DNA of 64,000 bases, from positions 3,143,570 through 3,207,569 of the forward strand of contig NC_023035.1 in assembly GCF_000507245.1 (NCBI RefSeq), read 5' to 3'. Position numbers and translations under genes: made by a program. Positions 2,306 to 8,947 of this stretch are shown piece after piece. The notes beneath the pieces are model-generated. The model did no database searches and was not told where the DNA came from. It saw nothing but the letters and a program-made list of their open reading frames with translations. The DNA is from Salinispira pacifica. GTDB lineage: Bacteria > Spirochaetota > Spirochaetia > DSM-27196 > Salinispiraceae. Each line of letters opens with the position of its first letter. The stretch's first letter is position 1.

Positions 2306-4805
2306 ATGAAGCATGAGAAAAACATCTCCAAGGATCATCTGCATCTGATGCTCACCGTGATCTGTCTGGCCGCTGGAGTTTCCTTCCTGCTGTCTTTAAT
2401 CATCTTTCCTGACATTACCCGGGGATATACCCTGGGTGAGAATATCGATTGGAACCGGGCCGCAGAACATCTGGAGGTTCTCAGCTCCCGGGAGCACGGA
2501 GGAAGGCTGAGCGGAAGTCCGGGCAACCGGAAATCTCTTGCATATGCGTCAGATCAATTCAAAGCCATGGGCCTCGCCCCCTGGGGAGACGATAACGGTT
2601 ATCTGCAGCATTTCTCCGGGATTGTGCCGGATATGGACACCTCCCCCGATTTCCGCATCACTGTCCCCGATTCGCCGCAGGTCCTTCAGTTTCAGATGTA
2701 TGAGGATTACAGTGTTCACAGTGCGTTCTACGGCACAGGAATTGATTTTTCCGGTGATATTCTCATCTGCAGCAGGACTCTCAACAGCTATCCCCGGGAG
2801 CTGCTTGAAAATCGACTGATCATAGCCCCCAGAACCAGCTATATGCTCCCCAGTCTGGAAACTGCACGAGCCGCAGGCGCCGCAGGAGTATTTTTCACAG
2901 CCGCCGCCAACTGGTACGGCGCCAGAGATGTAAACAAACCCTCGGAAAAACAGATTTCCATTCACCGGAAACTGGGCACCGATTTTTTCTCCGGAGACAT
3001 ACGCCCCGCTGCAGTGGCCCGGCTCAAACAGCTTGCAACGGAGGTAGAACATGCTCTCCTGGTCCCGGGTGCTTCAATTGCAGTGGAACTGAATTTTCCC
3101 GTGGCCTCCAGTGCAAATGTGCTGGCGCTGCTGCCGGCCCGGTCACGTTCTGCCCAAAAGCAGAGCGGGGGGGCATAGCCCGGGGCAGAAATCAGCGGTC
3201 ACAGGCAGAGCCCTGATCATTTCCGCCGATATTGACGGCAGAGGAAGGGGGCCGGAAGGGATGGTTTTTCCTTCCACCTCCAAACAGGCCGCATCCACGG
3301 CGTTACTTATTGAGCTTGCCAGAGCGGCGGCAGAAGCACCGGCGCCGCCGAAACGGGACATTGTATTTGCATTGTGGAACTCATCGGAAATTGACGGAGC
3401 GGGAGCTGAATTCTTCACCAGAAATCCGGAACTGGATCTGGGACAGAGTGATATTATTCACATTCAGAATGCAGGAATGGGAGGAATCCAGACTTCCGTG
3501 GTAAGTGACGGACGGCACGGAGGAATCATCAGCAGCCTCATCACCCAATATGGGGCAAACCGGGGTCTGCCGGCGGTCAAGGCCAGTCCCGATTCCCGGG
3601 GCAGCATCATCCCGTTTATGAATTTACGCATTCCTGCGATAGTGCTGGAAGCATCATCCCCGGCTCCCGACGGAATTCTCAACACCAGCCATACAGTTGA
3701 TCTTCAGGCACTTGCGCTCAGGGGGAAGGTGCTGGGAGATTATCTCGACTGTGAACTTTTTACCCCCCCCCCTTTTCTGAGCATTCTGCCCCGCTCCATG
3801 CTTCTCGCCGCAGCACTTCTGTTCAACCTGATCCTTCTGGTGAGGATTCTGGAACAGCTCAGCAGAATTCCAGGCTCACGGGATATTTGGGAGCGGATCT
3901 ATTTTCATCCTGCCAGCGGATTCATTCGAAAGTCCGCCTCGTACCTGCTCCCCGCCGCATTGGCAATGTTTCTGTTCATCCTGATCATCCAGCTTCCTCC
4001 GGACAGTCAGGTAAACCGCAGCACAGGGCAGGACAGCATTTCTACCCACCTCCTGTTGAAAAACAGCTGGAATTTTGTGCGCGATTTCTTCCGGGGGAAT
4101 CTGCGTACCAGCGCCGACAGCGGAACAATCATCAGCATTTTACTCACATCCGGGCTGCAGAGTCTGAAACTGATCGGCGGAGCCCTGGGCGTTTCGGCCC
4201 TGGCTGCCTTTCTCACAGCGCGCAGGAGCGTACAGGGTCCCCATGCGTTCAGCCAGGGCAGACGCTCCATATCCCCGGGCGGCATCCTGGGAGCATCGGT
4301 TCCGGGTATCGTGGTAATCCTTGCCATGCTCTCTCTGTATGTGGCGGTTTCAGAGATCTGGCCCCAGCTCAGCAGGAACCTGCAGCTCCAGCAGAGTCTC
4401 TTTCCCCTGATCAGTATCAGCATCCTTCCCGCAGCCTACAGCGCACGGATGACCGGCCTGCGGATCGACCGGGAAATGCAGCGCTCCTATATTCTGGCGG
4501 CCAGAGCCCGGGGCTACAGCCCCCGGCGGATTTTCCGCACCCAGCTGCTTAGGCCTCTGGCAGGAAGTTTCGGTGAAAACCTCCCGTCCCTCATGGCATT
4601 AATTCTCACCAATCTGATCCTTGTTGAATACCTGTTCAACTACAAAGGCCTGGTGTTCTACCTTCTCTATTTTTACCAGCGCCACGATGCATCCAGTTTC
4701 ATCAGCGTCTCCCTGGCGCTGCTTCTGCTTTACTCCCTTGTCTCTCTGGCAGGAGGGGCAATGGCCATGATCTTTCAACCTATGAAAACACGGAGGCTGG
4801 TATGA
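2306..4805 (+). CDS. Degenerate M28 peptidase-like domain fused to DppB-type ABC permease (frameshifted)
   Basis: From ATG 2306 the protein has an N-terminal membrane anchor (LMLTVICLAAGVSFLLSLII) and then a region resembling the start of M28 aminopeptidases (HLEVLSSREHGGRLSGSPGN, FKAMGLAPWGDD). A PA-like insert (RAAGAAGVFFTAAANWYG) and an M28-like core (GRALIISADIDG, RDIVFALWNSSEIDG, LNTSHTVDL) follow. The zinc ligands look lost: where M28 enzymes carry H-x-D, D-N and E-E, this protein has ADID, STSKQ and SE. The last ~400 residues are a binding-protein-dependent permease with a clear EAA loop (YILAARARGYSPRRIF). The frame breaks at a run of seven G (3167-3173); removing one G joins both halves into about 832 residues, nearly the length of the next gene. 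Its TGA overlaps the next ATG (ATGA), which implies translational coupling. Confidence 0.75.
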
Positions 4806-7276
4806 AACCGAACATCCGCACATGTGCCATAGTCACCGCTTCCATTATCCTTCTCTCGCTTCTTGTCATGATGATATTCGCCGAACAGTTGGCCCCCAGA
4901 AGTCCTTACACCATGCAGAGCATCAGATCATGGACAGAGGACGGGCGGCTGATATTTCAAAAGGCCCCCTACCCCCCTTCCAGGCGCTTTCCACTGGGAA
5001 GTGATGAATTCGGAAGAGATATTCTCAGCAGAATTATTCATGGAAGCCGGATCACCATTCCCCTTGCATTCTGCATCGTGCTGCTGCGCTTCGCTCTGGC
5101 AGTGCCCCTTGGAATCAGAGCCGCCTTCGGAGGAAAAATCGCCGCCGGATTGATTCATCAATTCAGTCTGATATTCAACGCCATCCCCGCCCTGCTTATC
5201 AGCCTGATCATTCTCAAACTTGAACTGTTTCAAAGCCTGGATACCATGGCTTCCGCACTGGCCTTCACGGCGGTGCTGGCAGGGGTAACCTGGTCCCGAA
5301 CCGCCCATATCATCCTTGAGCGAAGCAGCAATATCCTTTCCATGCAGTTCATCCGCAGTGAGATCGCAATCGGAAAGTCACCGTGGATGATTACCAGAAA
5401 AAATCTCATTCCCCACCTGCTTCCTGAAACTCTTGTTCTGTTTTTCATGGAGATAGGGTCTGCTCTCACCCTGCTGATGCAGCTGGGGATTTTTGCAGTG
5501 TTTTTGGGAAACCTCAGGATAGTCAGGGATACCACCAACGGCATTATCAGCTATTTTAATGTGAGTTTTGAACCGGAATGGGCCAGCATGCTGGGAACGG
5601 CCAGAAACATGATTTCCACTGCTCCCTGGATGGTGATATATCCTGCGCTGGCGTTTTTTATTACCGTATTGGGGTTTAATCTCTTCGCAGAGGGGCTGCG
5701 GCAGTTTCTTCCGGGACCGGGCCAGGCGGCATCTCCAGGATCCACTGCTTCGGTGACTGATTCGGCCACTGATTCAGTAACCGATTCGGCCTCGGCTGCG
5801 GGCAGAGGCCCGGACACAAAAACAACAGGGAGGAAAGGAAAGCGGCTTCTCCCAAAAATCGTTTTCTCTTCGGCGGTCCTTGGAGCAGTCATTCTGATGC
5901 TCCTGCTGCCCAGTCCCGTGCCGGAGCAAAGCTGGAAGAGCTTTCCTTCCGCCCTCACCGCTCCGGTACGCCCGGGGAGCGGCGATGCGGCCATGCGGGC
6001 ACGGGCTATGGGGAAGCAATTCCGGGAAATGGGCATGCTTCCCGTACACGGAGATTCATATGAATGGCATCCCCAGCGGCCGGCTGAGTATTACCAGGGA
6101 AGCACCGGGATCCGGATCACCCTGCCTGCAGGGAATGAGGCGGAGCCGGTTTCTCTGAAACCCGAACCCGGTTCCTGCATGGTACGAAAATTTTCACTCT
6201 CAGATATCCATACCCGGGGTTCTGCCTCGCAATCGGATAATTTGCCCGATACTTCCGTTCATATTTCTCTGGAGGATATTCCCCTGGTGGACGGCAGGAA
6301 TATGGATTTGCTCAGTTTCTCACGGGACGATGCTGCAGGAATCCGGGGATCATTTCTTGTGACAGACCCACTTATGTATCCTGAACAGGCCTTTCAGGCT
6401 GCAATCCGAAGAATAGCCGGATTCCCCGAAATCCAGGGGGTCATTATTCTCAGCGCCCCCCGCCGCATCTCCCCGGACACGGCGGCGGAAGCCGGCGAAT
6501 ACACCGAAATACTTATCGAACGTGCCCTGTTCCCGCCCATCTCCGGGCAACTTCCCCCACGGTCCCGGAACCTTCTGCGGACTTCCCCGGCAGAAGGAAG
6601 CCTCTCTCTGGAGTTTACCGTTCATAAAGTTGAAGCCCAGCCGGCATATATTACCGGACTCATTCAGGGCACCGACCCCGGTCTGGCAGGCAAGGCCATT
6701 ATGATTACCATGGACTACCTGTCCGCATCCCGCATGCCGGGGCTGGCTGAATGGCAGCTGAACCTTATTGAATCACTCTCCGGCCCCTTCCGGGGCTCCT
6801 GGTCATATATCATTTGTCTCACACCAGGCGGCGGGCAGCCCGGCTTCCAGGGTCTTGCGGAATATATTGACCGCATGCCGGTGAACTACAGTGATATTGA
6901 ACTGCATATTAATCTCAGCGGCATGTCCCTCTCAGGTCAGGAAGGGCTGGGATTCAACCGGCAGCAGGCCCCGGTTACCCGTACCTACGCCTGGTCAATT
7001 GCACTGCTCATGGAAGAGGAACTGCAGGCCTTGAGCAGAAAGCAGGATATTCCCCTCTACTCCATGGAGTCCAGGCTGCAGACCGTACAGTACTACTTTC
7101 CGCTGAACCCGGAAGTGAACGCTCACTTCTGGGAACACGGCATCGCAAGCGTGTTCCTGCAAAGCAGTCCGGAAATCCTCCGAAATGCAGGGAAAGCTCT
7201 GGCATCAATCATCCTCAACAGCATGTATATGAACAATCATCCTTACAGCGAACACCCAGGAGCCGGTGGAACATGA
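4802..7276 (+). CDS. DppC-type ABC permease fused to degenerate M28 peptidase-like domain
   Basis: An 824-residue protein. Residues 1-310 are a DppC/OppC-like permease: first membrane span, the family signature PLGSDEFGRDILSRIIHGSR, and further spans with an EAA-type loop (IRSEIAIGKSPWMITRKNLIPHL). A Ser/Thr/Asp linker with 12-bp repeats (VTDSATDSVTDSAS) and a second anchor (about 345-370) lead to a ~440-residue extracytoplasmic domain. That domain shares the M28-like start (ARAMGKQFREMGMLPVHGD) and core strands (GKAIMITMDY) but shows no zinc-binding His/Asp/Glu set. The order is the mirror image of the upstream gene, permease first and peptidase-like domain second. It overlaps both neighbours by ATGA (4802-4805 and 7273-7276). 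The domain may replace a binding protein; that is inference. Confidence 0.75.
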   Translation: MKPNIRTCAIVTASIILLSLLVMMIFAEQLAPRSPYTMQSIRSWTEDGRLIFQKAPYPPSRRFPLGSDEFGRDILSRIIHGSRITIPLAFCIVLLRFALAVPLGIRAAFGGKIAAGLIHQFSLIFNAIPALLISLIILKLELFQSLDTMASALAFTAVLAGVTWSRTAHIILERSSNILSMQFIRSEIAIGKSPWMITRKNLIPHLLPETLVLFFMEIGSALTLLMQLGIFAVFLGNLRIVRDTTNGIISYFNVSFEPEWASMLGTARNMISTAPWMVIYPALAFFITVLGFNLFAEGLRQFLPGPGQAASPGSTASVTDSATDSVTDSASAAGRGPDTKTTGRKGKRLLPKIVFSSAVLGAVILMLLLPSPVPEQSWKSFPSALTAPVRPGSGDAAMRARAMGKQFREMGMLPVHGDSYEWHPQRPAEYYQGSTGIRITLPAGNEAEPVSLKPEPGSCMVRKFSLSDIHTRGSASQSDNLPDTSVHISLEDIPLVDGRNMDLLSFSRDDAAGIRGSFLVTDPLMYPEQAFQAAIRRIAGFPEIQGVIILSAPRRISPDTAAEAGEYTEILIERALFPPISGQLPPRSRNLLRTSPAEGSLSLEFTVHKVEAQPAYITGLIQGTDPGLAGKAIMITMDYLSASRMPGLAEWQLNLIESLSGPFRGSWSYIICLTPGGGQPGFQGLAEYIDRMPVNYSDIELHINLSGMSLSGQEGLGFNRQQAPVTRTYAWSIALLMEEELQALSRKQDIPLYSMESRLQTVQYYFPLNPEVNAHFWEHGIASVFLQSSPEILRNAGKALASIILNSMYMNNHPYSEHPGAGGT

Positions 7277-8316
7277 CAGACCAACACGATGTACAGCAGC
7301 CGGTAATTCAAATGAAAAATCTCTCAGTTCGCTTTCCCGCCCCCGGGGGAAGCATTACCGCGGTACGGAACCTGAGTTACACCCTGTCTCCGGGAAGCAT
7401 CAGCGGAATCCTGGGAGAATCGGGAAGCGGAAAATCTGTGAGCAGCCGTTCTCTGGCGGATCTGGCTGCAGGAGGAACCCGGCAGGCTGAATCCCTTCGC
7501 TACCGGGGCAAGGATCTGATGAACATGCAGGAAGACGAGCTGGGCCGGATCAGGGGAAACGAGATTGCGTATATCTTTCAAAATCCCCGTGAAAGTCTGA
7601 ATCCCTACACGAGCATCGGTACTCAGTTCCGCCAGCTTCTCCGTACATCTTCCCGGCAGTCTTTCAGTGAGTCCTTCCGGCAATCTTTCCGGCATTCCTC
7701 AAGGGGGGCGGGCCGGGCAGAGGAGGCAAGGGAAGAGCAGATACACCGGGCATTGGAGGAAGCAGGCCTTCCGGAAACAGAGCGGATTCTTCAGATGTTC
7801 CCCCATCAGCTCAGCGGAGGGCAGAATCAGCGGGTGAACATTGCCATGGCCCTCCTGCTCAGAGCGGATGTGATAATTGCAGATGAACCCACCAGTGCGG
7901 TGGACAGTCACCTCCGGGGTCAGATTCTTTCCCTTCTGGAGCGGATCAACCGGGAACACGGAACCACAATACTGATCATTACCCATGATTTTGCGGTAAT
8001 CAGGAGGCTGTGCAGCAGGGTGCTGGTGATGTACGGAGGCCTTCTTGTGGAAGATGGTCCGGTGGAGGAGATTATGAGCATCCCCCGGCATCCCTACACC
8101 CGGGAGCTTCTCCAATGCAGCGCATCACTGGAGTCCGCATCAGAAAGTGCCGACGGCGGGAAGAGCACACGGCAGGCAGGTATTTTCCGACGTCTCAGAA
8201 GTGCTATTGCCCTCAGCATCCCCTGCGGGCCGAAAGGAAACCGTACTGGAAGCACGGGGGATATCCAGGCATTTTCTCATTCAAACCAACCCCTTTCGTC
8301 CGCCGGACCGGATTGA
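7273..8316 (+). CDS. Oligopeptide-type ABC transporter ATPase, DppD-like
   Basis: The first nucleotide-binding subunit of the peptide-type transporter. It has Walker A GESGSGKS (residues ~49-56), Q-loop FQNPRESLNP, signature LSGGQNQRV, Walker B VIIADEPTSAVD and H-switch ITHDF, so it should be an active ATPase. A Ser/Phe/Arg-rich insert with short repeats (RQSFSESFRQSFRHSSRG) lies between the Q-loop and the signature. After HPYTRELLQ the sequence stops resembling DppD, lacks the usual Cys-rich tail, and runs 170 bases over the next ATPase in another frame. Either the tail is divergent, or this and the next frame were one YejF/GsiA-like double ATPase broken by an indel between 8130 and 8300. 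ATGA overlap with the upstream permease. Confidence 0.8.
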   Translation: MTDQHDVQQPVIQMKNLSVRFPAPGGSITAVRNLSYTLSPGSISGILGESGSGKSVSSRSLADLAAGGTRQAESLRYRGKDLMNMQEDELGRIRGNEIAYIFQNPRESLNPYTSIGTQFRQLLRTSSRQSFSESFRQSFRHSSRGAGRAEEAREEQIHRALEEAGLPETERILQMFPHQLSGGQNQRVNIAMALLLRADVIIADEPTSAVDSHLRGQILSLLERINREHGTTILIITHDFAVIRRLCSRVLVMYGGLLVEDGPVEEIMSIPRHPYTRELLQCSASLESASESADGGKSTRQAGIFRRLRSAIALSIPCGPKGNRTGSTGDIQAFSHSNQPLSSAGPD

Positions 8317-8947
8317 TGCTCTGAAAGATGTGGATCTGCGGCTGTACAAGGGAGAAGTTCTTGGACTTGTAGGCGAAAGCGGAAGCGGCAAATCCACCAT
8401 GGGCAGCATCCTTACCGCCCTGCAGAGACCGGACTCCGGACAGGTTTTATTCCGCAACCGGGATATTTTCACCCGGACTCCCCGGGAACTGCGGAAGATC
8501 CGCAAGGAACTTCAACTCATTTTTCAGCAGAGCGGAAACGTACTGGATCCCAGAATGACAACCGGAGCCATTCTCACCGAAGCCCTGAGCCTTCATAATA
8601 TCTGCAGCCGGGAGGAACAACCCCATGAACTGAAACGGCTGCTGGAGCTGGTTGGACTTCACGAGGATACCCTTCAGCGGTATCCCGGAGAACTCAGCGG
8701 AGGCATGCTTCAACGGGTGATCATCGCCCGCGCCGTGTCCACCAGACCCTCGGTAATAATCTGCGATGAACCGGTGTCTGCCCTGGATGTCTCGGTGCAG
8801 GGACAGGTGCTGAACCTTCTGAAGGATCTCCAGGAAGAGCTGGAATTAAGCTATATCTTTATCTCCCATGATATTGATGTGATCCGTCACATGGCTGACA
8901 GGGTCGCCGTTCTGGAATCCGGAGAACTGAGGGAAGGGAAAATTTGA
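8147..8947 (+). CDS. Oligopeptide-type ABC transporter ATPase, DppF-like
   Basis: The second ATPase of the transporter. Homology begins near VLEARGISRHFLIQ and continues with Walker A GESGSGKST, Q-loop IFQQSG, signature LSGGMLQRV, Walker B VIICDEPVSALD and the H-switch ISHDI. The only in-frame start upstream of the homology is GTG 8147, with no ribosome site, well inside the previous gene. This supports either a DppD-DppF fusion split by a frameshift or a start by coupling. The protein ends at GELREGKI, about 50 residues before DppF proteins usually end, so the C-terminal regulatory tail is missing. The operon stops here, and no substrate-binding protein gene is adjacent. Confidence 0.8.
   Translation: MPTAGRAHGRQVFSDVSEVLLPSASPAGRKETVLEARGISRHFLIQTNPFRPPDRIDALKDVDLRLYKGEVLGLVGESGSGKSTMGSILTALQRPDSGQVLFRNRDIFTRTPRELRKIRKELQLIFQQSGNVLDPRMTTGAILTEALSLHNICSREEQPHELKRLLELVGLHEDTLQRYPGELSGGMLQRVIIARAVSTRPSVIICDEPVSALDVSVQGQVLNLLKDLQEELELSYIFISHDIDVIRHMADRVAVLESGELREGKI

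Follow-up and report, generated by a model that had tools for sequence, protein, structure and literature searches.

A Dpp/Opp-type ABC transporter with a predicted dead M28 peptidase domain fused to each of its two permeases

Introduction

Can an ABC importer of the Dpp/Opp family catch its substrate without a binding protein? Such importers are taught as requiring one, either separate or tethered, and always of one fold. A locus of Salinispira pacifica, a spirochaete from a salt lake, raises the question directly. Positions 2306-8947 of the 64-kb stretch of DNA analysed here (the window) hold an ABC transporter unit of the Dpp/Opp type, in the order M28-DppB, DppC-M28, ATPase, ATPase. Each of the two permeases bears a large domain resembling an M28 aminopeptidase, and no oligopeptide-binding-protein (SBP_bac_5) gene is present in the unit. 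The genome of strain L21-RPul-D2 is closed, with 3,782,798 bases assembled from PacBio, Illumina and 454 data (PMC4511686). We report here on the genes of this unit, on their relatives in other genomes, and on the role that the fused domains may play.

Results

The four-gene unit of S. pacifica

The features of the locus are collected in Table 1. A first-pass annotation, made from the letters alone, had proposed two consecutive permeases, each fused to an M28-like domain and in opposite domain order, and Pfam, profile and fold comparisons all agree with it. In Pfam searches, the second part of gene 1 matched BPD_transp_1 over the cut-off (E 7.4e-14) and M28 (E 1.3e-4). Gene 2, whose open frame is intact over the 824 residues announced, matched BPD_transp_1 with an E of 3.2e-5 (24.2 bits, for a cut-off of 26.4), and its permease matched the NCBIfam families Opp2C/NikC with E of 6e-34 and 7e-30, under the curated cut-offs. 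The two ATPases matched ABC_tran with E of 2.3e-25 and 2.8e-32, and each has a Walker A, a signature and an H-loop motif. As these motifs and the EAA loops of the permeases are intact in sequence, energy coupling is expected.

All genes had been described as linked by ATGA overlaps. This holds for the junctions of gene 1 with gene 2 and of gene 2 with ATPase 1 (at 4802 and 7273) but not between the two ATPases, whose frames overlap over 8147-8316, up to 170 bases, with no ATGA junction. The flanking genes, named by eye, are patatin-like, SRPBCC-like and pyruvate:ferredoxin oxidoreductase genes, and look unrelated to the transporter. Since no neighbour common to the other loci was seen by eye, the four-gene unit appears to stand alone.

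Table 1. Features of the transporter locus, with positions in the window
Feature	Position	Strand	Description
Gene 1, first part	2306..3178	+	N-terminal TM helix, M28 N-terminal segment, PA-like insert; stop just after G7 run
Gene 1, second part	3111..4805	+	Open frame; homology from about 3186: dead M28 core, TM helix, DppB-type permease
DppB-type permease of gene 1	about 3792-4802	+	Inside second part
G7 run	3167..3173	+	Coincides with gene 1 frame break
C10 run in gene 1	3763..3772	+	In frame; longest homopolymer found in the window
Gene 2, 824 aa	4802..7276	+	DppC/NikC-type permease (about 1-304), extra TM (353-371), dead M28 (about 372-824)
Gene 2 ectodomain, as modelled, 454 residues	5912..7273	+	
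ATPase 1, DppD-like	7273..8316	+	Walker A, LSGGQ, H-loop; Cys-rich C-terminal tail missing
ATPase 2, DppF-like	8147..8947	+	Probable GTG start at about 8201, without an ATG nearby

The fused pair in other genomes

When the full-length gene 2 product was used as query against 393 genomes of the phylum, mostly ordinary permeases were returned. With the C-terminal domain of gene 2 as query, relatives were found in 2 of 46 genomes of the order (the remaining matches being at chance level) and in 4 of 297 genomes of the class, the genome of S. pacifica being included. Among these spirochaetal relatives, two operons are whole (L045 and L046) and one is interrupted by a contig end (L042). The search for the same pair in other spirochaetes, suggested by the first-pass annotation, was thus positive for 3 further genomes, none of them with an adjacent binding protein. 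A gene 1 profile run against GTDB species genomes detected the same operon in clostridial MAGs, and found L046 again, as L050. Outside S. pacifica, the four-gene unit is present in 3 spirochaetal and at least 8 clostridial genomes.

At least 12 loci (the window, L042, L045, L046/L050, L047-L049, L051-L054 and the reduced L083) have the order M28-DppB, DppC-M28, ATPase, ATPase; some of them are partial at contig ends, L046 has frame breaks and L053 masked bases. The homologues measure about 790-840 aa for gene 1 and 735-790 aa for gene 2. The conservation of the same four genes in the same order supports the view that they form one complete unit. The absence of a binding protein from the cluster, also claimed at first, extends to the family: among the matches listed, no SBP_bac_5 gene adjoins the operon in any of the 12 loci. 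No relatives were found among viral contigs. The long fusion tentatively seen in L021 was rejected, this being an ordinary permease adjoining other genes. Intact homologous operons such as L045 rule out an artefact of one genome or of a frame break, and we conclude that the transporter family is real.

Fold and location of the fused domains

By hydropathy, gene 1 encodes one TM helix, about 450 residues, a second TM helix and then the six TM helices of the permease. In gene 2 the permease helices come first, followed by one extra TM helix and 405-453 residues. If the permeases adopt their usual orientation, both ectodomains are likely to lie outside, a placement deduced purely from hydropathy.

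Ectodomains of the gene 1 family were matched by the Pfam M28 model in 8 of 9 rows (best E 2.6e-18), and in a profile search they matched solved M28 enzymes and transferrin receptor 1. A model of the gene 1 ectodomain, P1 (pLDDT 78, pTM 0.79), gave Foldseek E values of 1.5e-24 to 2ek8 and 2.4e-21 to transferrin receptor 1, and was superimposed by VIA-align on 6hc7 with a Z of 33.3 over 368 residues (rmsd 3.3). Nearly its whole length corresponds to an aminopeptidase with a PA insert.

The gene 2 ectodomain of S. pacifica matched no Pfam model. Its profile aligned to that of the gene 1 ectodomain with a probability of 94.5 (hhalign, E 8e-8, 356 columns), and its model, P2, which is of low confidence (pLDDT 64), retrieved M28-type folds (Foldseek E 2.6e-14, VIA-align Z 17.3). 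The assignment is independently supported, because gene 2 domains of a sister type, described below, match Pfam M28 above the cut-off, with E of 1.6e-9 to 3.2e-13. Taken together, Pfam rows, profile comparison, Foldseek and VIA-align rule out a chance match to M28. Along almost all of their length, both ectodomains match M28-type peptidases and not a periplasmic-binding-protein fold, and the models indicate that both (400-450 residues) are M28 aminopeptidase folds with a PA-like insert, the gene 2 model being of low confidence. The fold first suspected in both domains is therefore matched in structure, for gene 2 through this low-confidence model and the profile comparison.

Loss of the zinc site

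Zinc ligands were aligned for 26 fused domains and 3 ordinary M28 controls, the gene 2 domains being less surely aligned at the last His. All 3 controls keep every zinc ligand, whereas the complete two-zinc site (His, Asp, Glu, Asp, His) with the catalytic Glu was found in 0 of the 26 fused domains. The first zinc His is kept in none of them, and the bridging Asp and the last zinc His are each kept in one. Loss of the zinc-binding positions in both domains, noticed already at first reading, is thus upheld by alignment with intact enzymes. Every gene 1 and sister-type domain retains the Asp of the HxD motif, which fits a derived, not a random, sequence. Compared to the rest of the lobe, conservation near the former active site is only weakly raised for P1 (p 0.074) and the sister type (p 0.086), and is not raised for P2 (p 0.83); it thus gives little indication of a retained binding cleft.

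A sister type, and the origin of the two fusions

In a sister type of operon from Clostridia (L079, L080, L082, L084, L085 and L088), a dead M28 domain is present on DppC only. The gene order is ATPase, short DppB without M28, DppC-M28 (about 780-800 aa) and ATPase, continued by genes for an RND-type adaptor, another ABC ATPase and a permease resembling MacB/FtsX. The whole sits between pheST and a ZapA-like/U32-peptidase pair (flanks named by eye), with no binding-protein gene adjoining. Across a broad set of 398 genomes of the phylum, the sister type reached fused length in the seed genome alone; most other matches were frames the size of ordinary M28 proteins, and this type therefore appears lineage-bound. 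The sister-type profile also matched M28-like open frames of 674-695 aa in L105 (5529-7616), L106 (6682-8706) and L107 (2190-4271). In L108 (3075-7234), a binding-protein-like lipoprotein gene, identified by eye, lies less than 3 kb from a 594-aa match to the M28 profile, another instance of the two kinds of gene as neighbours.

L086 (6621-8735) encodes a stand-alone dead M28 membrane protein with a lipobox-like start and several TM helices. Immediately downstream of its gene is an ordinary Dpp operon that has a binding protein of its own. The first-pass annotation had named homologues with a separate domain beside a normal binding protein as the case contrary to its proposal. Such an arrangement was seen in this more distant locus only, and the 12 listed loci are fused.

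In both the DppC and the DppB tree, the fused permeases of both types were separated from 27 ordinary permeases by a 100/100 branch. In the ectodomain tree, the gene 1 domains group with the L086 protein (98/91), close to ordinary M28 enzymes. A 100/98 branch separates them from the domains of gene 2 and of the sister type, a separation to be taken with caution because branches are long. It lends no support to a recent duplication that would have copied one ectodomain into both permeases. The trees point to what were apparently two separate recruitments of M28 domains, several branches being long, with DppC probably the first recipient; the L086 protein is a possible precursor of the gene 1 fusion. 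In the gene 1 trees, spirochaetal L046 branches among clostridial sequences, suggestive of a transfer between phyla.

State of the S. pacifica copy

In S. pacifica, gene 1 is split over two overlapping frames (Table 1). These correspond to one protein, since the homologous operon L045 has an intact gene 1 of 815 aa. The window contains 4 runs of at least seven C or G, and 2 of the 4 are inside gene 1, one of them exactly at the frame break; such runs are compatible with slippage or with on/off switching. The homologues of ATPase 1 keep a Cys-rich C-terminal tail (oligo_HPY region), which is missing from the S. pacifica protein (8130-8316). The gene 2 ectodomain shares no more than 20-23% identity with the others, and is on a long branch of the tree.

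Frame break, missing tail, diverged ectodomain and homopolymer runs together indicate that this copy may be off or decaying. A real family with a non-functional member in S. pacifica, either decaying or reversibly switched off, is a substantial if minority possibility, and is compatible with each of the readings discussed below. In its favour, gene 1 is broken at the G7 run although the PacBio assembly was checked with Illumina and 454 data (PMC4511686), and the C10 run lends itself to slippage. The G7 break is nevertheless possibly a sequencing indel; the frames of gene 2 and of the two ATPases are uninterrupted and their motifs intact, and each part of gene 1 can still be aligned to its homologues.

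Discussion

We estimate at about one half the probability that, in this Dpp/Opp-family transporter, tethered dead M28 pseudo-peptidases replace the binding protein as receptors. A tethered receptor is the simplest reading, because no binding protein is adjacent and each permease carries a large domain. The diffusible protein would be replaced by two dead M28 domains, one attached to each permease half, which would sit over the pore and hold the substrate; as active M28 enzymes bind compounds with a free amino group, a small molecule or peptide of that class is the likeliest candidate. On ATP binding the two domains would pass the substrate to the permeases, in the direction of import rather than export, as do the tethered substrate-binding domains known on the ABC importers GlnPQ (PMC8025302) and OpuA (PMC11065425). 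Peptide nutrition is unlikely in S. pacifica, because this species reportedly grows without using peptides or amino acids (PMC4511686). A more specific version, to which we give slightly less than even odds, is that the flytrap binding protein has been dispensed with and the substrate is caught by a heteropair made up of one dead aminopeptidase per half of the membrane channel, each from its own M28 lineage.

Like the Dpp/Opp/Nik importers (DppABCDF, NikABCDE), the transporter combines two related EAA-loop permeases and two ATPases in one operon. It differs from them by the lack of an adjacent binding protein, by the dead peptidase domain on each permease and by a permease clade of its own. 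An extracytoplasmic domain fused to the permease is shared with GlnPQ and OpuA; there, it has the substrate-binding-protein fold, whereas here it is of the unrelated M28 fold, with one on each of two different permeases. The closest solved folds, covering nearly the whole domain, are M28 aminopeptidases with a PA insert (2ek8; BSAP, 6hc6/6hc7), which are active zinc enzymes without permease fusion, in contrast to the permease-fused domains described here, which have lost the zinc site. In transferrin receptor 1 and nicastrin, a catalytically dead M28 fold is used as a membrane receptor. Both share with our domains the M28 fold, the lost zinc site and the membrane-bound state, and transferrin receptor 1 is among the best sequence and fold matches; they are eukaryotic and outside ABC transporters, whereas the present domains are part of a bacterial one. 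A review of pseudopeptidases (PMC11266112) makes no mention of M28. The first-pass annotation knew of no described transporter of this kind, and we likewise found no description of an M28-permease fusion in the literature searched, which is weak evidence of novelty; as far as searched, the architecture is undescribed.

The transporter could instead be an exporter, the dead M28 domains serving as outer gate, release chamber or anchor. Dpp-type permeases can export without a binding protein, as reported for SapBCDF, a putrescine exporter of E. coli and P. mirabilis (PMC12772348), to which the permease here has a weak sequence resemblance: among NCBIfam families, SapB ranks second for the gene 1 permease of L045 (E 5.6e-12, far below cut-off). 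An RND-type adaptor and a MacB/FtsX-like permease also adjoin the transporter in the sister-type operons. We nevertheless consider export unlikely: the best permease matches are to the import families Opp2B/NikB, NikC and Opp4C, SapBCDF is not known to bear such domains, and operons of the window type are devoid of adaptor genes.

Somewhat less likely still is an importer served by a binding protein encoded elsewhere, for which the dead M28 domains would be a dock or a scaffold. Among the matches listed, SBP_bac_5 genes occur in every operon-bearing genome. S. pacifica itself has an orphan one, with no permeases adjoining (G000:C1:3529703-3530803), and L086 pairs its dead M28 membrane protein with a downstream Dpp operon that includes a binding protein. 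However, of 20 related genomes without the operon, about 16 contain a close relative of this orphan, so it does not appear linked to the operon, and no oligopeptide-binding protein adjoins any of the 12 listed loci. As a separate observation, SBP_bac_5 matches in G548:C124, G552:C103 and G554:C81 fall in frames of 789-845 aa, longer than usual, possibly other fusions.

That the fused domains are still hydrolases, perhaps with another metal or mechanism, trimming substrates at the pore, is highly improbable: L045 gene 1 retains a Glu-Glu pair and L083 gene 1 the bridging Asp and one Glu, but the first zinc His is absent from 26 of 26 domains, and the last zinc His and the bridging Asp from 25 of 26 each, with complete controls.

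For experiments on this transporter family, the homologues are better material than the S. pacifica copy. Possible intermediate stages are seen in the sister form, where a single permease is fused, and in L086, where a dead M28 protein stands by itself next to an ordinary Dpp operon. If the reading of the M28 domains as receptors is true, another fold, that of a dead enzyme, can take over the receptor role in an ABC importer, and the family would offer a defined system for asking what ABC importers need from a receptor. The change from M28 enzyme to receptor, known from the transferrin receptor, would then have a bacterial counterpart, in which it was apparently made twice.
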